NCBI RefSeq assembly: GCF_000147075.1
Contig: NC_014484.1
Coordinates: forward strand, 1,939,501-2,003,500
DNA: 64,000 nucleotides
Direction: 5' to 3'
Source: Spirochaeta thermophila DSM 6192
GTDB taxonomy: Bacteria > Spirochaetota > Spirochaetia > Winmispirales > Winmispiraceae
Part shown: positions 4,903 through 51,243 of the stretch, one piece after another
How positions within the stretch are numbered: the first letter of the stretch is position 1
How the letters are laid out: each line of letters starts with the position of its first letter
The notes under the pieces: generated by a model
The model's database searches: none
What the model saw: only the letters and a program-made list of their open reading frames with translations
What the model was told of the DNA's origin: nothing
Position numbers and translations under genes: made by a program

Positions 4903-5946
4903 TCATTTCTTGGGGGTGTCGGGAACCACGAGTTCTCCGCTCGCGATCTTCTTCGCGTACTCCTCCACCACCGCGAGGATCTCCGGAGAGAGATTGGGAT
5001 TCTCCGCAGGGAGCCCCACACCATCGTTCTTCAATGAAAAGGCCAGCGTCTGACCACCGGGGAAGTTCCCCTCCATGGTCATCTTCGCCACGGTGTAGGC
5101 GGCCACGTCCACCCGCTTCACCATGGAGGTGAGCACGGCCGATGTGCCCTCTCCGTAGATGCCGTCCTGGTACTGGTCCTTGTCCACGCCGATCGCCCAG
5201 CGGATGTCGCCCTTCTGGGAACGCTCCTTGGCCTCCTTGATCATACCATTACCGGTTCCGCCGGCCGCGTGGAAGATGATGTACGCGCCTGCATTGAACT
5301 GTTTCTGGGCGATGGCCTGCCCCTTGTCAGGTGCGGCGAAGTCTCCCGCATAGTCCACCAGTATGGTGCACTCCGGGTACACGGCCTTCACCCCGGCCTC
5401 GAATCCGGCCTGAAACTTCTCGATGAGCGGGAACTGCATCCCGCCGAGGAAACCGACCACGTTCTTGCCGTCCTGCTTGGCCTTGAGGCCCGCGGCGACA
5501 CCCACGAGGAAGGAGCCCTCGTGTTCTGCAAACACGGCCGATACCACATTGGGAGCCTCGACCACGGTGTCGATGACCAGGAACTTGCGGTCGGGATACT
5601 GTTTCGCCACCTCGGCCACGGCGTTCTGGAAGAGGAAGCCCGGCGCCACGATGAGGTCCAGCCCCTCGTCGGCGAACGTGGCGAGGTTGGGTACGTAGTC
5701 GGCCTCCTGCGAGGACTGGAGGTACTTGTACCCCACCCCCTCCTCGAGCCCCATCTCCTTACCGAAGCGTACGATCCCCTCCCAGGTGCCCTGGTTGAAG
5801 GATCTGTCGTCGATCCCTCCCACGTCGGTCACGAGTCCCACTCTGAAGCTCGGCTCCTCGATCTTCGCCTCTTTCTTCTGCCCACATGCAGGGAAGAAGA
5901 CCAGGAGCACCGCCATAATAAGAAAAATAAGCCCTGAACGTCTCAT
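4903..5946 (-). CDS. BMP family nucleoside-binding lipoprotein (PnrA/TmpC type)
   Basis: A 347-residue lipoprotein that captures nucleosides outside the membrane and hands them to the permease pair. The signal peptide ends in the lipobox FPAC with Cys21 as the lipidated residue. The mature part opens with FRVGLVTDVGGIDDRSFNQG, the diagnostic BMP/PnrA motif in which an Asp and a Phe contact the ribose and base. Later blocks include EHEGSFLVG, VGFLGGM and DKDQY. The family is the same as Treponema TmpC and Borrelia BmpA. An AGGAGG site lies a few bases before the ATG and a consensus promoter lies about 45 bases upstream, so it leads a nupO-P-Q-like operon. Confidence 0.93.
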   Translation of the reverse strand: MRRSGLIFLIMAVLLVFFPACGQKKEAKIEEPSFRVGLVTDVGGIDDRSFNQGTWEGIVRFGKEMGLEEGVGYKYLQSSQEADYVPNLATFADEGLDLIVAPGFLFQNAVAEVAKQYPDRKFLVIDTVVEAPNVVSAVFAEHEGSFLVGVAAGLKAKQDGKNVVGFLGGMQFPLIEKFQAGFEAGVKAVYPECTILVDYAGDFAAPDKGQAIAQKQFNAGAYIIFHAAGGTGNGMIKEAKERSQKGDIRWAIGVDKDQYQDGIYGEGTSAVLTSMVKRVDVAAYTVAKMTMEGNFPGGQTLAFSLKNDGVGLPAENPNLSPEILAVVEEYAKKIASGELVVPDTPKK

Positions 5947-5988
5947 ACATCCTCCTCGAATCGCATGAAAATCGTAGAAATATCTCCC

Positions 5989-6017
5989 ATACTAGACCCC
6001 CTTCACCCGGCAGTCAA
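5989..6017 (-). promoter_or_regulatory. sigma-70-like promoter of the nucleoside importer operon
   Basis: Minus-strand -35 TTGACT (6012-6017), 17-base spacer, -10 TAGTAT (5989-5994). The leader to the lipoprotein start is about 35 bases. The -35 lies inside an imperfect hairpin (CGGCAG 6008-6013 / CTGCCG 6025-6030) that may also act as the 3' end of the deoC transcript. Confidence 0.7.
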
Positions 6018-7312: not shown

Positions 7313-7893
7313 GGGCGCTCCTCCACGGGAAACGGACGTCCGTGCGCGGGAAAGGCCCTGCGCCCACCCCTCTCTCCTACGAGGCGCCACACCGCCCGTC
7401 CCTCCTCCTCTGCGAGCTGGTGCGCAGGCGGCATGTCGCCCACCGCCACCTCTCCACCGTCGAGGAGGAGACTCACGCTGTCCGCCGAGTGCACCGGGGT
7501 AGGGAGCACCTCTCCTCCGATCCCCCACGTAGCGAGGATCCGCCGGGACTCCTCGAAGGGTACGCGCTCGAGGGCTTCCAGGTCTATGGGGGTGAAGGCC
7601 ATCCCCTTGCGGGCCATGAAGGACTCGAACCCGGCGATCGCCTCCTCTTGAGAGGGGAAGACGAGGAAGGGGATCCCTCGAGACTGGAGTTCCCCCGCGA
7701 TACCCGCATGGTCGATGTGGAAATGGGATACCATGAAACAGGAGAGATCGGAGAGGGTGAACCCAAGCGACTTGAGGCCATCGATGTAGGAACGTATCGT
7801 ACCCGGCCACCCCACGTCAAAGGCGAGGAGCCCCTTCTCCCCCTCCACCAGATAGTAGTGGGTGCTCTTGTAGGAGAACGAACGCAACGGCAT
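7309..7893 (-). CDS. MBL-fold metallo-hydrolase
   Basis: A metallo-beta-lactamase fold hydrolase of about 194 residues. The metal-binding motif HFHIDH is present (in SHFHIDHAGIAG), followed by the later ligands in TPVHSADSVSL and GDMPPAHQLAEEE. The last motif, FPAHGRPF, matches the C-terminal His of the family. The substrate is unknown. The start at 7893 (MPLRSF) gives the normal N-terminus, but its upstream sequence is pyrimidine-rich and has no Shine-Dalgarno match; the frame is open for another 33 codons, which look non-coding. It is coupled to the downstream acetyltransferase by an ATGA overlap. Confidence 0.82.
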   Translation of the reverse strand: MPLRSFSYKSTHYYLVEGEKGLLAFDVGWPGTIRSYIDGLKSLGFTLSDLSCFMVSHFHIDHAGIAGELQSRGIPFLVFPSQEEAIAGFESFMARKGMAFTPIDLEALERVPFEESRRILATWGIGGEVLPTPVHSADSVSLLLDGGEVAVGDMPPAHQLAEEEGRAVWRLVGERGGRRAFPAHGRPFPVEERP

Positions 7894-42690: not shown

Positions 42691-43128
42691 TTACTCGGAG
42701 GCGCCTCCCCGCGCCTCCTCCAGCGCCCTCACCAGCGCCTCCCGGAAGGCATCCGAGGTCCTCGTAGCCCCGCTCACCGCATCCAGACTGAGCTCGCTCC
42801 CTGCCTTGAGCACGAGCCCCTCCAGCTCCTCCACCACCTCGCCCCATTCCCTTCCGCTCAGACGCATCATCTCCCGGTTCTGCGCTTCATCGCCCGTCTT
42901 CGAACGACCGGTGCGGGGGTCCCGCTCGTCGTACTCCACCGCCGCGATCCGTCCACCTCTCACCTCCAGCACCATATAGGGCACATAGCCGTACACCCTG
43001 CGATCGGAGAGCACCACCTCGTACCGGCCGTCCGCGAGGCCCGAGAGCACGATGCGCTCCGGGCCACACCCCGCGGCCGTGAGAAGCAGCACCCCCACCA
43101 CTGCGGACAAGGCCCTACGGACGCGCAT
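42691..43128 (-). CDS. FMN-binding domain lipoprotein of the iron-uptake operon
   Basis: A 145-residue exported protein. Signal ends TAAGC with lipidated Cys21. The FMN_bind domain follows: GRYEVVLSDRRVYGYVPYMVLEVRGGRIAAVEYDE, and near the C-terminus DAVSGATRTSDAF with the SGAT motif in which Thr takes the covalently bound FMN phosphate. The start at 43128 follows AGGAGG; it overlaps the ATPase gene end by 14 bases. It probably passes electrons outside the membrane. In Campylobacter the equivalent position has thioredoxin-like proteins instead. Confidence 0.85.
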   Translation of the reverse strand: MRVRRALSAVVGVLLLTAAGCGPERIVLSGLADGRYEVVLSDRRVYGYVPYMVLEVRGGRIAAVEYDERDPRTGRSKTGDEAQNREMMRLSGREWGEVVEELEGLVLKAGSELSLDAVSGATRTSDAFREALVRALEEARGGASE

Positions 43129-43804
43129 CCACCACCTCCTCCACAAAGGGATTCACGGGCGATATCCTGCCGTGGTTGAGGTACACGATGCGGTCCGCCT
43201 CCTTCGCCAGATTGGGGTTGTGGGTCACCATGATGATGGTCCGCCCCTCCCGTTTGAGCGCGCGGAAGAGGTCGAGCACGATCCCCTCGTTCCTCTCGTC
43301 GAGGTTCCCGGTGGGCTCGTCCGCGAGGAGGAGCGCAGGCTCGTTGACCAGTGCACGGGCGATGCAGACCCGCTGCTTCTCGCCTCCGGAGAGCTGGGAC
43401 GGCCTGTGGGAGAGGCGCTCACCGAGCCCCACCTTCCTCAACACCGCCTCCGCTTCCCTCCGATCGGCCATACTGTGATAGTACTGGGCGACCATCACGT
43501 TCTCCAGGGCGGTGAGGTAGGGCACCAGATGGAACTGCTGGAACACCAACCCTATCTTCTCCCTCCGAAGCACGGCCCGTTCGTGTTCCGAGAGGCTGGC
43601 GGTCTTGCTCCCATCGAGGATGTACTCCCCCGAGGTGGGGGTGTCGAGGAGGGCGAGTATGTTGAGAAGCGTGGTCTTTCCTGCACCGGAGGGCCCCATG
43701 ATCGCGAGCCACTCCCCTTCCTCCACCCGGAGGGAGAGCCGGTCGAGGGCATCGATCGACCCGTACGATCGGGTGATATCCTTGAGCTCCAGAACGCAAC
43801 GCAT
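43115..43804 (-). CDS. ABC transporter ATPase (MacB/LolD type), iron operon
   Basis: A 229-residue ATPase. Walker A is GPSGAGKTTLLN, signature LSGGEKQRVCIARAL, Walker B LLLADEPTGNLDERN and His in VTHNPNLA. The family works with FtsX/MacB-type permeases on mechanotransmission rather than transport across the membrane. It lies between its two permeases and the FMN-binding lipoprotein gene and overlaps the latter by 14 bases. Confidence 0.92.
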   Translation of the reverse strand: MRCVLELKDITRSYGSIDALDRLSLRVEEGEWLAIMGPSGAGKTTLLNILALLDTPTSGEYILDGSKTASLSEHERAVLRREKIGLVFQQFHLVPYLTALENVMVAQYYHSMADRREAEAVLRKVGLGERLSHRPSQLSGGEKQRVCIARALVNEPALLLADEPTGNLDERNEGIVLDLFRALKREGRTIIMVTHNPNLAKEADRIVYLNHGRISPVNPFVEEVVDARP

Positions 43805-43821
43805 GTCTCACCTCCTCATGT

Positions 43822-44985
43822 CTACTCGTTCTTGAGGATGCGGGCCGGGTCGATTCGGCCCGCGATCCAGAGGGCGGGAAAGGCGGCCACGAGGGCCACC
43901 AGACCGGTGAGCACCAGGGTCGAGGGGAGTATCACCGCCTCGAGATCGATCCACGTGCCGAACACCGAACGTCCTATCCACTGGGCGATCCCCCACCCCA
44001 GCACCACCCCCACGAGGGCACCAGAAGACGAGAGCACCAGGAGTTCCGCGACGAACCTCCTCACCACATGGGAGAGCTCGGCCCCTATGGCCCGCATGAG
44101 GGCGATCTCGTACCGGCGCTCCGAGATCACCGCGATGAGGGTGGTCATCACACAGATGACCACGATGAGCATCATCACCGCCGCCACCACCACGAAGAGG
44201 CCGCGGACCTTCTCGAGCACCGCACCCTCGGACCGGGCGATCTGCAGGACGGGTTTCACCTGCACGTCGGAGAATCGCTCCTGGATCCGTCCGAGATGGG
44301 ACTCGAGGTCCACCGCGTGGGTATCCACGCTCAGGGCAGCGAGATCCACGCCCTCGGCCCGGTCGAGCACGGCCCTCGCCACCTCGATGTTCACGAAGAG
44401 CTGAAGCTCCTCTTCCCCGCCCGTCTCGACGATCCCCTTCACACGCATGCGCCATCGTGTTGCCCGGTCCCCGCCGTAGAGGACGACCTCATCCCCCACC
44501 TCGAGCTCCATCGCCTCGGCGAGACGAGAGCCCACCATGACGTTCCGGTCGTCGAAGGGCACACCGATCCAGGAGCCCTCGACCTGCCAGTAGGGGAAGA
44601 CCTTCCTCATGTCGGGGAATCTTCCACCCGCGAGCATCGCCTCGCCCAGATCGAGACGCACCTTGCCGTACAGGAGCGGGCTCCACCCCACCAGGGCCTC
44701 CCCGGGAAACGAGGAGACGACCTCTCCCACGCGATCCTCCGGGACCTCGGTCATCCCCTCTGCAGGGACGATGAGGACGTTCGCCCCGAAGTTCCTCAGT
44801 TCGCGGCTCATCTTCTCGGGAACGTCGAGCGTCACGAGAGAGACGGCGGAGAAGACCGCGGCTCCCACCACCAGGGAGAGGAGGATCACGCCGGTCCTGT
44901 TGCGCTGGTTGACGAGGGCCTTGACGACGAACCCGGCGAAGACCGCGAGGTTCCGCCCCCATCTGTTCGCCCTACTTCGAACCAT
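43822..44985 (-). CDS. FtsX/MacB-type ABC permease, second of iron operon
   Basis: A 387-residue permease with one N-terminal helix, a large extracytoplasmic MacB-like domain (about 45-250) and three C-terminal helices (VVVAAVMMLIVVICVMTTLIAV onward). ALMRAIGAELSHVVRRFVAE is the typical coupling segment with the ATPase. Overlap of 14 bases with the preceding permease indicates coupled translation. Confidence 0.9.
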   Translation of the reverse strand: MVRSRANRWGRNLAVFAGFVVKALVNQRNRTGVILLSLVVGAAVFSAVSLVTLDVPEKMSRELRNFGANVLIVPAEGMTEVPEDRVGEVVSSFPGEALVGWSPLLYGKVRLDLGEAMLAGGRFPDMRKVFPYWQVEGSWIGVPFDDRNVMVGSRLAEAMELEVGDEVVLYGGDRATRWRMRVKGIVETGGEEELQLFVNIEVARAVLDRAEGVDLAALSVDTHAVDLESHLGRIQERFSDVQVKPVLQIARSEGAVLEKVRGLFVVVAAVMMLIVVICVMTTLIAVISERRYEIALMRAIGAELSHVVRRFVAELLVLSSSGALVGVVLGWGIAQWIGRSVFGTWIDLEAVILPSTLVLTGLVALVAAFPALWIAGRIDPARILKNE

Positions 44986-46249
44986 GGAGGACCTCCGCAG
45001 GACGTATCCGCTCTATCATCCGCGAGGGGAACCAGGTCCCGAAGAGCGAGCAGAAGAGGGAGGTGAGGAGCACGAGGGGGATGGCAACAGGTCTGAACCC
45101 CACCCCTCTTCCGAAGAGCTGCAGGGAGAGTACTCCGCTCATCCCGTACCCGAGTGCCCAGCCCATGGCCCCTCCCAGGAGGCCGATGACCCCCGCCTCC
45201 ACGTAGAACTGGGAGAGGATGAGGAAGCGTGGTGCGCCCAGGGCCTTCATCAATCCGATCTCCCGCGACCGCTCGAGCACCACGGTGGTCATGATGGAGG
45301 AGATTCCGAGGGCCGCCGCGATGGTGGCCACGATGGTGATCACCCCGAGGAAGAACTGTACCTTGGTCATGATCTCGCCCTGGCCGGCCGCCACCTGCCA
45401 GACGGGCGAGACCCGGGCATTCGGAATCGCCTCCTCCAGTTGGTATGCGATGGCCCCCACGTAGGCCGTGCAGTACCAGAGATCCCACTCCCTGTCGGTG
45501 AGCGAGCCGGGATCCCGCCGCGCCCGCCTCGCAAGGGCATCCTCCGGCGTGGTGAGGGCCGCCACCCGCACGTAGGAGACCTTTCCCTCGAGGCCTGCAT
45601 GTCGCTGCACAAAGGAGAGCGGAGCGAGTATCACCTCGTCCTCCTCCCCTCCCGATGCCAGGATGCCCGTGACCAGGAGGGATCCACCATCCTCCAGTGT
45701 GAGGACCTCCCCAGGCCGGACCCCGAGCCGACGCGCGAGGGACGTCCCGACCAGCACCTCCACCATCTCCGCCTCGTCCTCCGGAAACCTCCCTTCCACC
45801 TCCCAGAAGCGGTAGAGGGTCTTCACCCCTGTGGAGAAGGTACGGCCACCCGGGACCGGTATCGACCTGTAGAAGTAGGTGCCGACCAGGGGCACCGAAG
45901 CCCCGTTCGACAGGGCGGCCGTACTCTCGAGGAAGGGGGCGAAGGCGGTGATGTTGTGCCGCCAGAAGATACTCTTGATCTTCGGGAGGTCGGACTCTTC
46001 GAGGAATGCCACATCCTCAAACGGATTGTATGCCACGCTCCCTATCCTGAGACCCGTGGAGCGCGTACGGGGGGTGACGAGCAGATTCGCCCCATAGGAG
46101 GAGAGCTCCCTCGCCATCTTGTCCCCGATGTCCATCGTGAGATTGAGGAGCAACGAGACGAGCGCCGAGGCGAAGAGCATCGTCACGCCTGCGAGCACCT
46201 TCTTGCCGGGATCCCTCAAGAAGGATCCCGCGATGATCCGTCCTTGCAT
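44972..46249 (-). CDS. FtsX/MacB-type ABC permease, first of iron operon
   Basis: A 425-residue permease of the same design as its neighbour: MQGRIIAGSFLRDPGKKVLAGVTMLFASALVSLLL helix, a MacB-like outer domain beginning MARELSSYGANLLVTPR, and three C-terminal helices with GLMKALGAPRFLILSQFYVEAG. The start at 46249 has GGAGG, eight bases before; an upstream ATG lies inside the preceding gene's flank without a site. The two permeases probably form a heterodimer. Confidence 0.9.
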   Translation of the reverse strand: MQGRIIAGSFLRDPGKKVLAGVTMLFASALVSLLLNLTMDIGDKMARELSSYGANLLVTPRTRSTGLRIGSVAYNPFEDVAFLEESDLPKIKSIFWRHNITAFAPFLESTAALSNGASVPLVGTYFYRSIPVPGGRTFSTGVKTLYRFWEVEGRFPEDEAEMVEVLVGTSLARRLGVRPGEVLTLEDGGSLLVTGILASGGEEDEVILAPLSFVQRHAGLEGKVSYVRVAALTTPEDALARRARRDPGSLTDREWDLWYCTAYVGAIAYQLEEAIPNARVSPVWQVAAGQGEIMTKVQFFLGVITIVATIAAALGISSIMTTVVLERSREIGLMKALGAPRFLILSQFYVEAGVIGLLGGAMGWALGYGMSGVLSLQLFGRGVGFRPVAIPLVLLTSLFCSLFGTWFPSRMIERIRPAEVLHGSK

Positions 46250-46281
46250 ACGGCCTCCATGCGACGTGTGTCGCTTCACTC

Positions 46282-47490
46282 TCAGAACGACTCCTCCTGG
46301 AGGAAGTACACCGCTGCGTTCTCCAGGACATCGCCTCCTATCATCACCATATCCCTGGTGACGGTGTAGTCGATGGGAATCGGATTACATCCCCCCGGCT
46401 CACCTATGGTGGGGATGAACATCTTCACCCCGCAGGCCACGCAGATCACGTCCTCACCCTCCTGGACGTATCCGGCATCACCGCAGAGCATGCAGGCATC
46501 GAGCACGGCGACGGGATCCATCCCAGAAGGGTCTCGGTTTATCACGAAGAAACGCACAGCCGTGCCTTCCGTCGAGAGGAACGCGTAGCGGTGGAGATTT
46601 CCATCCGAGACCTCCTCGAGAGGGATCTCCACCGAACCCGAAGCCGGGGAGAGGGCGACCTCCTCCGCGGCAGAGAGACGCGGGGCCCTTCCTCCCCATA
46701 TGTCCTGGAAGAGCAGGGGAAAGGCCACCATGAGGACGACCACCACCCCGGCGGCCGTCCGCCTCCGGTGCCTCCTCGCGGCTGCACACCTCTTCCTCCG
46801 CTCCGGGCCCGTCTCCTCCGGCTCCGCCGCCGCGTGCCGCGGCCGGTGCACGAGTGCGACATACCCCACCATCACCGCACAGACCGCGAGGAAGAGGTAC
46901 CCCGAAAGGGGTGCGTATCGTGTGGTCCGGGCGGAGAAACCGACCAGGCCGCGGGAGGGGGGGAGCACGTCCGACCTCACGAGTTCGAGCACCACCTCAC
47001 CGGCCAGGACGATTTCCAGCACCAGGAGCCCTCCTCCCACGAGCAGGGAAGAGAGAAGCCCCGGCACCGATCCCTTGAGGAGGCGCAGATAGTGATGGAA
47101 GAGGAGCAGGAGGAGTACGCTCCCTGCGATGAGGAGCATCCTCGCCACGAACTCGCTGTTGAGAAGACTCACCACGGTCACCGGATGATCGGTGAAATAC
47201 TCCCAGAGCACGAGCCCTGTCCACAACCCCAGGCCCCATACGGACACCGCCTTCACCCGGGAGAAGAATACAGGGAGCGAGGCCATGGTGAACACGAGCA
47301 CACCCAACCTGAACCACCGATAGAGCCCCAGATCCACGGCGAGCGGCGCGGACAACCAGACGAGGAGCAACAGAAACATGGGAACACGAACCGGGGACCC
47401 CCCTGAGCGCCGGCCCCACCCCTCTTCCTGCAGGGAAACGATCACGACGAGGGGAAGCGACGTCCTGAGGATCGCACTCACCACATCCAT
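46282..47490 (-). CDS. DUF2318 Cys-rich membrane protein of the iron operon
   Basis: A 402-residue membrane protein with about seven hydrophobic segments in residues 1-230 and a C-terminal outer domain of the DUF2318 family. The domain contains FFVINRDPSG, DACMLCGDAGYVQEGEDVICVACG and GGCNPIPI, five Cys residues fit for metal or redox cofactor binding. DUF2318 proteins accompany FTR1 and P19 in Campylobacter and Treponema-like bacteria and are thought to act in electron or iron transfer. ATG at 47490 follows GAGGCTCGGGT; the site is weak. Confidence 0.9.
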   Translation of the reverse strand: MDVVSAILRTSLPLVVIVSLQEEGWGRRSGGSPVRVPMFLLLLVWLSAPLAVDLGLYRWFRLGVLVFTMASLPVFFSRVKAVSVWGLGLWTGLVLWEYFTDHPVTVVSLLNSEFVARMLLIAGSVLLLLLFHHYLRLLKGSVPGLLSSLLVGGGLLVLEIVLAGEVVLELVRSDVLPPSRGLVGFSARTTRYAPLSGYLFLAVCAVMVGYVALVHRPRHAAAEPEETGPERRKRCAAARRHRRRTAAGVVVVLMVAFPLLFQDIWGGRAPRLSAAEEVALSPASGSVEIPLEEVSDGNLHRYAFLSTEGTAVRFFVINRDPSGMDPVAVLDACMLCGDAGYVQEGEDVICVACGVKMFIPTIGEPGGCNPIPIDYTVTRDMVMIGGDVLENAAVYFLQEESF

Positions 47491-47510
47491 ACCCGAGCCT
47501 CCGGAGAGAG

Positions 47511-47546
47511 GGAGGGTTCGCCCGGGACGGCCCGGGCGAACCCTCC
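47511..47546 (-). terminator. strong hairpin inside the iron operon
   Basis: A 16-bp perfect stem (47511-47526 with 47531-47546, loop of 4). On the minus strand it follows the P19 gene, without a U-run, and so may act as a processing or mRNA-protecting hairpin rather than a full terminator; on the plus strand TTTGTT follows. Confidence 0.6.
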
Positions 47547-47582
47547 TTTGTTATGCTGAAAAGGCGATCATGGCCTCACGCC

Positions 47583-48101
47583 TTACTCGATGGGGACGTA
47601 CGTGAACTCCCAGCTCAGGGTGAATGGTTCGAACCAACGCCCCACGCCGGTATCGGCATCGGTGTGCCGGAGGAACCCCTGCGAGGAGGGATTCTCGATA
47701 CGATAGACGAGCCTATAGGTACCGGGCCCCATCATGCGGATGTTGTTCCCGTAGTGGGGACCGTCGGCTGCCACCATGGGCATGAACACACCGGTCTGCC
47801 GCTCACCCGTATCGAGGTTGATGAGCTCGAACGAGATCTTCAGATAGGGGATCCACTCCCCTATGGCGAACCCGTTCGGGTTCCCCTCGACGGCACGAAC
47901 GTCGGCCTCGAGGTGGATGTCCGAGAGCGACGCAGGCAGGCCGCTCCCCCTCGGCTCCATGTCCACGGGTTTGAGGTACACCGCAGCGACCTCCATTCCG
48001 TTGATCCTCTGCGGTTCGCCGATGGGATATTCGACGAATTGTGCGAACATTACCCCAACGGAAGCCGTCATGAGAAACAGTGCGAGGATGAACCTCTTCA
48101 T
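47583..48101 (-). CDS. P19/Tp34 family periplasmic iron-binding protein
   Basis: A 172-residue secreted protein with a signal peptide (MKRFILALFLMTASVGVMFA) and the P19 beta-sandwich fold: EYPIGEPQRINGMEVAAVYL, DMEPRGSGLPASLSDIHLEADV, and PMVAADGPHYGNNIRMMGPGTYRLVY. The Met/Glu and His residues of these three segments are the metal site of Campylobacter P19, which binds copper and iron in a dimer. It accepts iron in the periplasm for FTR1. It starts one base before the FTR1 stop. Confidence 0.92.
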   Translation of the reverse strand: MKRFILALFLMTASVGVMFAQFVEYPIGEPQRINGMEVAAVYLKPVDMEPRGSGLPASLSDIHLEADVRAVEGNPNGFAIGEWIPYLKISFELINLDTGERQTGVFMPMVAADGPHYGNNIRMMGPGTYRLVYRIENPSSQGFLRHTDADTGVGRWFEPFTLSWEFTYVPIE

Positions 48102-50045
48102 CTATGACTCCTTTCTCCCGGATGTGTCCGGGTGGGTTTCTTCGGGTCGCACCACGACCCGTGTGCGCCGGTGCACGATGAAGACCACCGCCGCCACTCC
48201 CGCCGCCACCAGAAGCAACGCCTGAGGCAGCAGCGTCTGCCAGTAGGGATAGATCCCGAGGAAGGGTACGGAGAGCCCCGGGACGAGGACCCGAGGTTCC
48301 ACCACGCCGGCCTCGATGAGCTCCATCACCCCTTTTCCCGCAAAGACGAACGCCATGTAGTAGAGGAACGAGCCCGTCACCGCGAAGAAGGGCCCCAAGG
48401 GGAGCCTCATGGCCCCTTCCTTGAGCAGGTAGAACACCACCCCCAAGGCGAGGATACCCACGAGGAACCCGGCCAGTATCATGAAGAAATGGGAGGTGGT
48501 GCCGGCGTCCACGGCAAGGGCCTGGTAGAAGAGTACCGTCTCGGCCCCCTCGCGGTACACGGCGAGGAACGCGGTGAACCAGAGGGCGCGCACCGAATTC
48601 TCGGAGAGCGCGACCTGCAGCTTGCTCCTGAGGTACCTCATCCACGCCTCACTCTCCACCTTGGAGAGGAGCCAGTAGCTCACCCCCACCAACACCACGG
48701 CGGCGAGGAGCATGGTCACGCCCTCCAGGACCTCGCGGGCCGCCCCGGAAACCCGGAAGACCCAGGAGAAGACGACCGCGGTCACCACACTGAGGACCAG
48801 GGCCGAGAGGGAGGCATGATAGATCGTCCGGATCCTGTCCGTATTGCCACTCCGTGTGAGGAACGCCACGAGTGCCATGATGATGAGGATGGCCTCCACC
48901 CCCTCCCGGAGGATGATCAGGAGCGAGTACACGAAGAAGCTCCACGATCCTCCCCCATCCCCCCGGAGGGCACCCGCGGCCTCATCAAGGAGCGAGACGA
49001 GCTTCCTCCCGTACGCTTCCGCTTCGGGGTCACCCTCCTTGAGCGCGGACGCAAGGGCCGTGAAAGCCCCCTCTATCTCCAGCTTACGATCAGGATCACG
49101 CACCCCGAGCGCAGTCTCCATACCCGAGGCCTCGAAGTGATCGAAATAGGAGTTCTGGATCACGCGCGCGGCGTCCACGCCCCTGCCCGTCCTGGCGAGA
49201 GAGAGGGCCTCTTCCACCGCCGCGCTCACCTGGCCCACCACGACACCCCAGTCCGCCTCGGGGATCTCCTCTCCCTGCACGGTCTTCGGGGACATCCCCG
49301 CCCCCTCGGGCACCTCGAGCCCCACGATCTCATCCCGGAGCGCCGAGACCAGACGGGCCGCCGCATCCTCGGCGAGGAAGAGGGAGCCGCTCTCCCTCAT
49401 GTGCTTCGCCACATCGCTGAAGGCGGCCTCGTAGGCATAGTTCACACTCTGGGACCGCTGGGTCCGGATGGCGATCTCGAGACCGGTGTTCTTGTAGCCG
49501 GCGAAGAGCGTCTGCCGTACCCGCTCCACGGCACCGTCCACGTCCCCTGAGGCGAACATATCCAGCGCCCCACGCAACTCCCCCTCTATGAAGTCCACGG
49601 TGGCCACCCACTCGGGCGGCGCCTCCCCCTTCGCAGTCTCCTCTTCACCGGCCTCGGCGACCAGCACGTGTCCGGCCTCCACCACCGGGAGTATCTCCTG
49701 GAGGCGGGCCAGAAGGAGATCGATCTTCCGGCGCACCTCGTCCCGATCGGCTCCCTCCGAGATGAGCGTCCGGATATCGGCGAACAGCCCCTCCAACTCC
49801 ACGTTCACCTGCATGCCCAGGTTGATGCGGATGGGGCCTTCGAGATTCTCGAAGACCTCGAAGTACGCATCCTGCACTGCATTCCGCGCGTCCTCCGCCT
49901 CCCCCCCCAGGTAAGAGGCATACGCTCCCTCGAGGAGACCTTCGATATCCGCTACCATGTCCCGATAGGCGAGGGAGTCCTGAGCCCCGAGAAAAAGCAC
50001 GGCAAGGAAGAACGCTGCAACCGCGACAGAAACCGTGTGACGCAT
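48102..50045 (-). CDS. FTR1 family high-affinity iron permease with large periplasmic domain
   Basis: A 647-residue protein. After a signal sequence there is a 350-residue helical periplasmic domain with two related halves (AYASYLGGEAEDARNAVQDAYFE and its later copy), then seven helices with the iron motifs REGVEAIL near 380 and REGAETVLF near 498, as in yeast Ftr1 REGLE. It moves ferric iron in through the inner membrane. It is first in the operon, directly behind the promoter and operator at 50,064-50,128. A GGAG site precedes the ATG at 50045. Confidence 0.92.
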   Translation of the reverse strand: MRHTVSVAVAAFFLAVLFLGAQDSLAYRDMVADIEGLLEGAYASYLGGEAEDARNAVQDAYFEVFENLEGPIRINLGMQVNVELEGLFADIRTLISEGADRDEVRRKIDLLLARLQEILPVVEAGHVLVAEAGEEETAKGEAPPEWVATVDFIEGELRGALDMFASGDVDGAVERVRQTLFAGYKNTGLEIAIRTQRSQSVNYAYEAAFSDVAKHMRESGSLFLAEDAAARLVSALRDEIVGLEVPEGAGMSPKTVQGEEIPEADWGVVVGQVSAAVEEALSLARTGRGVDAARVIQNSYFDHFEASGMETALGVRDPDRKLEIEGAFTALASALKEGDPEAEAYGRKLVSLLDEAAGALRGDGGGSWSFFVYSLLIILREGVEAILIIMALVAFLTRSGNTDRIRTIYHASLSALVLSVVTAVVFSWVFRVSGAAREVLEGVTMLLAAVVLVGVSYWLLSKVESEAWMRYLRSKLQVALSENSVRALWFTAFLAVYREGAETVLFYQALAVDAGTTSHFFMILAGFLVGILALGVVFYLLKEGAMRLPLGPFFAVTGSFLYYMAFVFAGKGVMELIEAGVVEPRVLVPGLSVPFLGIYPYWQTLLPQALLLVAAGVAAVVFIVHRRTRVVVRPEETHPDTSGRKES

Positions 50046-50063
50046 CGAATCTCCTTTACGGCA

Positions 50064-50083
50064 TGATATTTATATAAAAATCA
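50064..50083. promoter_or_regulatory. 20-bp palindrome, candidate iron-repressor site
   Basis: TGATATTTATATAAAAATCA is a near-perfect inverted repeat (9 of 10 base pairs match). It lies just downstream of the predicted start site of the FTR1 operon. It resembles the AT-rich GATAATGATnATCATTATC-type boxes of Fur and its relatives without matching them exactly, so I cannot say whether a Fur, DtxR/MntR or other protein binds it. Confidence 0.55.
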
Positions 50084-50099
50084 TTGTTTTTACCTCAAA

Positions 50100-50128
50100 A
50101 CAGTAGCGCACATCGATATTCCTGTCAA
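50100..50128 (-). promoter_or_regulatory. promoter of the iron-uptake operon
   Basis: Minus-strand -35 TTGACA (50123-50128), 17-base spacer, -10 TACTGT (50100-50105). Start near 50093, leader of about 48 bases. A looser CCTG...CAGG dyad overlaps the -35. Confidence 0.7.
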
Positions 50129-50223
50129 TATAAGTCAGGAATTTTCCTTCAGTTTTCCCTCCCCCTCACCCGACCCTTGACCTTCACCCCTCTTCCGTTC
50201 CACCCTGAGGGGAGGAGGCGTAT

Positions 50224-51243
50224 ATGCACATGGAACACGACGAGTTTCAACCCGTCCGGTGGGGCGTGCTGGGCGTGTCGGGCCACTACAGGCTCCGCGT
50301 CCACAATCCCATGGACGATCTTGAAAACGAGGGGGTGGTGGAACGCATCGCCATCGCCTCGAGGGAGCTCGAACGGGCAAAGGAAGCGGCCCGGCAGCTG
50401 GGATTCAGGAAGGCCTACGGATCCTACGAGGACCTGCTCGCCGATCCGGAGGTGGAGGCGGTCTACATCCCCCTTCCCAACACCATGCACGCAGAGTACG
50501 TGAAGAAGGCTGCCGATGCGGGCAAGCACATCCTCTGCGAAAAGCCCTTCACCATGTCCGCGAAGGAGACCGAGGAGGCCATCCAGTACGCACTGGAGAA
50601 GGAGGTGCTCGTCATGGAGGCCTTCATGTACCGGCTCCACCCCCAGTGGCAGCACGCAAAGAGACTGGTCTCGGCAGGTGAGATCGGGGAGGTCCAGAAC
50701 ATCCACGTGTTCTTCTCCTACCACAACCCCGATCCCTCCAACATCCGCAACCGCAAGGAACTGGGCGGGGGCGCCATCCCCGACATAGGGTGCTATGCGG
50801 TCTCCTCCAGCAGGTTCCTCATGGGGAGGGAGCCGGAGCGGGTCGTGGCCCTCGTCCGGCGTGACCCTGAGCTGGAGGTGGACACCCTCTCCTCCGGGAT
50901 CCTCGACTTCGGCGGGCCGCGGGCCCTCTTCACGGTGGGGACCCGCACCTTCCCCCGGCAAGAGGTCCAGGTCTACGGCTCGCGGGGGTATCTGTCCATC
51001 GAGATCCCGTTCAACATGTACCCGGACGTGCCGGCAAAGCTCACGGTCCAGACGAGCGTGGGTACGAGGGTGGTGGAGACCGAGGCCATCGACCAGTACG
51101 GCCTCGAGTTCACAGCCTTCTCCCTCGCCGTGAGGGGTGAGATGCCCCTCCCCATTCCGCCCGAGGACGCCATCGCCAACCAGAAGGTGCTCGATGCCCT
51201 CTTCCGCTCCGAGGAGAGCGGGACGTGGGAGAAGGTCACCTGA
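50224..51243 (+). CDS. Gfo/Idh/MocA family oxidoreductase
   Basis: A 339-residue NAD(P)-dependent sugar oxidoreductase-like protein. The Rossmann strand WGVLGVSGHYRLRV is followed by IAIASRELERAKEAARQLGF, the core KHILCEKPFTMS with the catalytic Lys of the EKP motif, and MEAFMYRLHPQWQHAKRLV. The closest described relatives are dihydrodiol/D-xylose dehydrogenase-like members. A GGGGAGGAGG site precedes the ATG; a second ATG two codons later is equally usable. Substrate unknown; no sugar genes lie next to it. Confidence 0.9.
   Translation: MHMEHDEFQPVRWGVLGVSGHYRLRVHNPMDDLENEGVVERIAIASRELERAKEAARQLGFRKAYGSYEDLLADPEVEAVYIPLPNTMHAEYVKKAADAGKHILCEKPFTMSAKETEEAIQYALEKEVLVMEAFMYRLHPQWQHAKRLVSAGEIGEVQNIHVFFSYHNPDPSNIRNRKELGGGAIPDIGCYAVSSSRFLMGREPERVVALVRRDPELEVDTLSSGILDFGGPRALFTVGTRTFPRQEVQVYGSRGYLSIEIPFNMYPDVPAKLTVQTSVGTRVVETEAIDQYGLEFTAFSLAVRGEMPLPIPPEDAIANQKVLDALFRSEESGTWEKVT

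Follow-up and report, generated by a model that had tools for sequence, protein, structure and literature searches.

The promoter of the FTR1/P19 iron-uptake operon of Spirochaeta thermophila DSM 6192 carries a dyad, TGTTTT-N6-AAAACA, that recurs at the feoAB promoter of the same genome and is probably the operator of a DtxR-family repressor. The operon lies in a stretch of 64,000 nucleotides (the window; NC_014484.1, positions 1,939,501 to 2,003,500 of the forward strand), and positions in the operon are counted from the first base of this window. A metal-loaded dimer of the DtxR-family protein encoded after feoB is proposed, with good though not high confidence, to bind the dyad at 50085-50102 and to repress FTR1/P19 when iron is ample. 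A sequence-only reading of this DNA had singled out a different element, a palindrome next to the same promoter, and had left the type of regulator open. The dyad shared by FTR1 and feo and its co-occurrence with the regulator gene point to the DtxR family and not to Fur, an assignment that is likely but unproven.

The two iron promoters are built alike. Their hexamers and spacing are TTGACA-18-TATTGT at feo and TTGACA-17-TACTGT at FTR1, and in each case the fourth base of the -10 hexamer is the first of the dyad. The genome (2.47 Mb) contains two exact matches to the dyad, those in the FTR1 and feoAB promoters, together with 3 one-mismatch and 37 two-mismatch sites; the number of exact matches expected is 0.0015 under a first-order Markov model and 0.007 from base composition. 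The congener G001 likewise has two exact matches, located in the same two promoters, and 2 sites at one mismatch. The FTR1 dyads of the two congeners agree at all 12 arm positions and differ at 2 of the 6 in the spacer. G002, a third genome from this family, has an exact dyad before feoA and a one-mismatch copy before an FTR1 gene. These sequences, positions and counts, and the co-occurrence of the dyad with the regulator described below, are direct observations on the three genomes.

S. thermophila encodes one DtxR-family and one Fur-family protein. The gene of the former directly follows feoB in this genome and also comes after it in G002, and in the congener it is found at the spacing seen here. 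Its product of 156 aa contains both domains of the family (PF01325, 67.5 bits with a cut-off of 26; PF02742, 73.6 bits with a cut-off of 27) and has the conserved metal ligands, D12, E15, H81, C104, E107 and H108, which make up a mixed Mn/Fe set. The protein is 97 % identical in the congener and 65 % identical in G002, and residues 38-45 and 47-52 of its recognition helix are the same in all three genomes with the dyad, and none of 26 further relatives examined shares them. A match to solved structures gave MntR as the closest relative of known structure (E 9.6e-18), and the scores for the NCBIfam MntR equivalog stayed below the cut-offs (96.8 bits vs 153 and 89.7 vs 138). The Fur-family protein comes closest to PerR models without reaching the cut-off of any of them, and its gene adjoins a Dps-like gene. 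The leader of this dps gene carries a dyad of its own, TTGTACTAATTACAA (locus L044, ~7345-7375; same place in locus L045 of the congener), which we take to resemble a PerR box. The single Fur-family protein of G002 is encoded with ABC cation-transport genes (identified by eye) and looks Zur-like; it could not be aligned with that of S. thermophila beyond chance (E 1.4). Since the dyad is present at the feo genes of G002 but the Fur-family proteins are unalike, only the DtxR-family protein, of the two kinds of regulator, goes together with the dyad in each of the three genomes.

Several observations weigh against this assignment or narrow its reach. The agreement between the congeners is no independent evidence, because the two are close. 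G002 has two exact matches as well, the second of which lies elsewhere (C2:46836-46853, locus L058), and the FTR1 protein it encodes is short and only distantly homologous, at 25 % identity. As G002 is AT-rich, its dyad sites are weak evidence when taken alone: when the two regions were shuffled 200 times each, 19 and 12 of the shuffles contained a match with at most one mismatch, so that the local controls are weak. Among 30 loci (L078-L107) collected around distant DtxR, feo or FTR1 genes, the exact box was found in only one, the feo locus of G002 (L078), for which reason it is not a general DtxR box. One-mismatch copies occurred in L079, L089, L095 and L098, and only that in L079 was placed at a promoter. 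The DNA upstream of 16 distant feo or dtxR genes was also read for dyads, none of which was like the box. A single genome-contig scan returned 15 relatives at 30-46 % identity and none closer, a result in which records of the genome itself may have been excluded. The metal could be Mn or both Mn and Fe, given that the predicted ligand set has Asp where DtxR has Met. Within the FTR1 leader of G002 (L079, ~5940-5990), several tandem copies of ACATAATACAA directly follow the box-like dyad.

A DtxR-family dimer positioned on 50085-50102 would cover the -10 and the expected transcription start, and in this way both FTR1/P19 and feo would be repressed. Since the feoAB-dtxR operon would be controlled in the same way as FTR1/P19, it would also feed back on itself. 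Binding, the metal and the direction of control are predicted here from sequence.

A close parallel in a spirochaete is offered by the TroR operators of Treponema, which, in the available part of PMC2628430, are also 18-bp, even-centred dyads of a DtxR-family protein, located at or just after the -10. An oligonucleotide of T. denticola used with TroR, ATTTTGATATATCAAAAT, has the same length and symmetry but, when compared by eye, another sequence (PMC2628430, as far as available), and the S. thermophila dyad does not have the operator sequence of the Treponema tro promoters given there. According to the same portion of that paper, TroR controls the tro cation-transport operon, and it has Asn and Glu where the S. 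thermophila protein has Asp and Cys. The mixed residues Asp, Cys, Glu and His recur in PgMntR of Porphyromonas gingivalis, which is described in the accessible text of PMC4805248 as binding both Mn(II) and Fe(II). Unlike PgMntR as described there, the S. thermophila protein is only 156 aa long and FeoA is encoded by a separate gene. The same two-domain family includes Bacillus MntR and Corynebacterium DtxR; the S. thermophila protein differs from the former by a Cys in place of Glu99 and from the latter by an Asp in place of Met10 and by the absence of the SH3-like domain. No TGTTTT-N6-AAAACA operator was found in the literature searched on DtxR-family operators in spirochaetes, as judged from title listings.

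The palindrome noted earlier, TGATATTTATATAAAAATCA at 50064-50083, was described as near-perfect over 20 bp, and this description holds: it extends to 22 bp, with 10 of 11 pairs, and exceeds local chance. Palindromes with at least 10 of 11 pairs arose in 1 of 2000 local dinucleotide shuffles of 50046-50128, in 1 of 2000 of 50046-50223 and in 10 of 2000 of 50060-50100. On the scale of the whole window such quality is not rare, as 7 palindromes as good were counted against a mean of 2.5 in 100 shuffles; the other six are G+C-rich or mixed. The palindrome does adjoin an iron operon promoter, that of FTR1/P19, and sits in the 5' leader of this minus-strand operon, between the promoter and the ribosome binding site. 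It had been placed immediately downstream of a TTGACA-17-TACTGT promoter. That promoter is present, albeit 15 bp separate its -10 from the palindrome, and these belong to the dyad, which the sequence-only reading had not mentioned.

Two dimers of the DtxR-family protein might bind cooperatively to palindrome and dyad, which would then act as a tandem double operator. This arrangement is possible, though doubtful. The two elements abut with their centres 20 bp apart, which is about two helical turns, and the two registers of the palindrome rank third and fourth within the window for a matrix built on the box. The score is, however, due to A+T content, as 5000 base shuffles gave an equally good one 419 times and 5000 shuffles that kept the palindrome did so 1452 times, and the feo promoter is without a comparable second palindrome at 8 or more of 10 pairs. 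The idea that the palindrome is a degenerate copy of the TGTTTT-N6-AAAACA box was dropped, its likeness to the box matrix being explained by A+T content.

A protein of the Fur family, PerR-like in character, might read the dyad in place of a DtxR-family protein and link iron uptake with peroxide defence. Some sites at one mismatch do lie before peroxiredoxin or rubrerythrin genes. In S. thermophila these are 338799, before a peroxiredoxin gene, and 564128, before a rubrerythrin gene and inside the end of the gene upstream of it; a third, 1046745, precedes a 321-aa open reading frame to which no function was assigned. In the congener, 105857 precedes a peroxiredoxin-like gene and 525458 a rubrerythrin gene, and the rubrerythrin site is the only one found at one mismatch in both. 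A peroxide regulon is nevertheless speculation, because a backwards control pattern nearly equals the real count in the congener (3 vs 4 at one mismatch or fewer, near chance) and gives 16 vs 42 here at two mismatches or fewer. A Fur-family reader of the dyad is unlikely, as the single Fur-family protein of G002, where the dyad is present at feo, belongs to another type, and the dps leader beside the Fur-family gene of S. thermophila has a different dyad. On a wider view, to which a low probability is given, Fur would have been replaced in this thermophilic spirochaete family by a DtxR-family sensor whose metal site is mixed Mn/Fe; this sensor would read TGTTTT-N6-AAAACA as its own operator, use a 40-bp tandem operator at FTR1 and control peroxiredoxin and rubrerythrin through the one-mismatch sites.

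The palindrome itself had been taken for the iron operator, placed so that a repressor would block the start of transcription, and a genome-wide scan had been suggested to see whether it lies before other iron genes. Only one place in the 2,472,645-bp genome was found at up to three mismatches, and a looser form occurs at one place here and one in the congener. Being thus a single copy in both, the palindrome fails as a shared iron motif and was rejected as a genome-wide one. At this stringency the scan gave the outcome that the sequence-only reading had named as refuting, with nothing similar ahead of another iron gene. In G002, the 12-kb regions of feo and FTR1 contain no match to it at up to three mismatches. 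It is identical in the congener, but a run of 22 bp without a change has a probability of 0.105 when 83 aligned bases contain 7 differences. The earlier remark that it does not equal the Fur box is borne out. The classical Fur box is a 7-1-7 dyad with an odd centre, and both the palindrome and the TGTTTT-N6-AAAACA dyad are even-centred and do not conform to it. Consequently, although the palindrome is better than local chance, lies in an iron operon leader and is unchanged in the congener, there is little probability that it is the main operator, for Fur or another repressor, with the second dyad being incidental. Most likely it is a lineage-specific accessory element, restricted to Winmispira, beside the probable true iron operator; its predicted role is perhaps that of a second repressor dimer site on the same face of the DNA or of a site for another factor. 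A role as a hairpin in the mRNA leader, to which its place between the expected transcription start and the ribosome binding site would be suited, was rejected as very improbable, as the fold of the 67-nt leader (-6.8 kcal/mol at 37 C, z = 0.53) was matched or bettered by 135 of 200 shuffles, and an A-U stem would be weaker still in a thermophile such as this.

The iron-uptake operon comprises seven genes on the minus strand, 42691-50045 (Table 1). By its Pfam domains and by comparison with the available part of PMC6083913, it has the gene order of the published FTR1-P19 operon (FTR1, P19, FtrD-like protein, two permeases, ATPase and a seventh gene), so that the operon as such is not new. The same portion of that paper gives an FMN-binding protein as the seventh gene in spirochaetes, with Spirochaeta thermophila DSM 6578 as a carrier, and shows the order FTR1, P19, DUF2318 membrane protein, two permeases and ATPase for Campylobacter jejuni 1649-1656. 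A consensus promoter scan of 49950-50300 reported no promoter, and TACTGT is a poor -10. A frameshift or a sequencing error at about codon 358-365 divides the FTR1 gene of the congener (L048, 4925-6864) between two frames.

Table 1 Features of the FTR1/P19 operon and its promoter region (window positions)
Feature	Position	Strand	Remarks
FMN-binding domain protein, last gene of the cluster	42691..43146	-	Pfam PF04205, 27.2 bits vs cut-off 22
ABC ATPase	43115..43804	-	Pfam PF00005
FtsX/MacB-type permease 2	43822..44985	-	Pfam PF02687, PF12704
FtsX/MacB-type permease 1	44972..46279	-	Pfam PF02687, PF12704
FtrD-like membrane Fe-S protein, 402 aa	46282..47490	-	Pfam PF10080, 99 bits
P19-type periplasmic iron protein, 172 aa	47583..48101	-	Pfam PF10634, 218 bits
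FTR1-family iron permease, 647 aa	48102..50045	-	Pfam PF03239, 97 bits
Ribosome binding site AAAGGAG	50051..50057	-	Read from sequence
Palindrome ATGATATTTATATAAAAATCAT, 10/11 pairs, possible second operator	50063..50084	.	Centre 20 bp from dyad centre; single copy in genome and congener
Proposed operator dyad TGTTTT-GAGGTA-AAAACA	50085..50102	-	Overlaps last three -10 bases; abuts palindrome
-10 TACTGT, weak	50100..50105	-	17 bp from -35; feo has TATTGT in the equivalent position with respect to its dyad
-35 hexamer TTGACA of the FTR1 operon promoter	50123..50128	-	Read from sequence; also in feo promoter

In conclusion, TGTTTT-N6-AAAACA is a candidate for a new operator; the regulator family that would read it and the operon that it would control are both known. 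The FTR1-P19 operon of Campylobacter jejuni is linked to Fur, whereas its likely operator in S. thermophila is a DtxR-type dyad, which suggests that a widely conserved iron-uptake operon has another kind of repressor here. The most eye-catching palindrome of a promoter need not be its operator. The question whether Fur or DtxR acts at these promoters is thereby turned into a specific, testable pair of operator and regulator in a deep spirochaete lineage.
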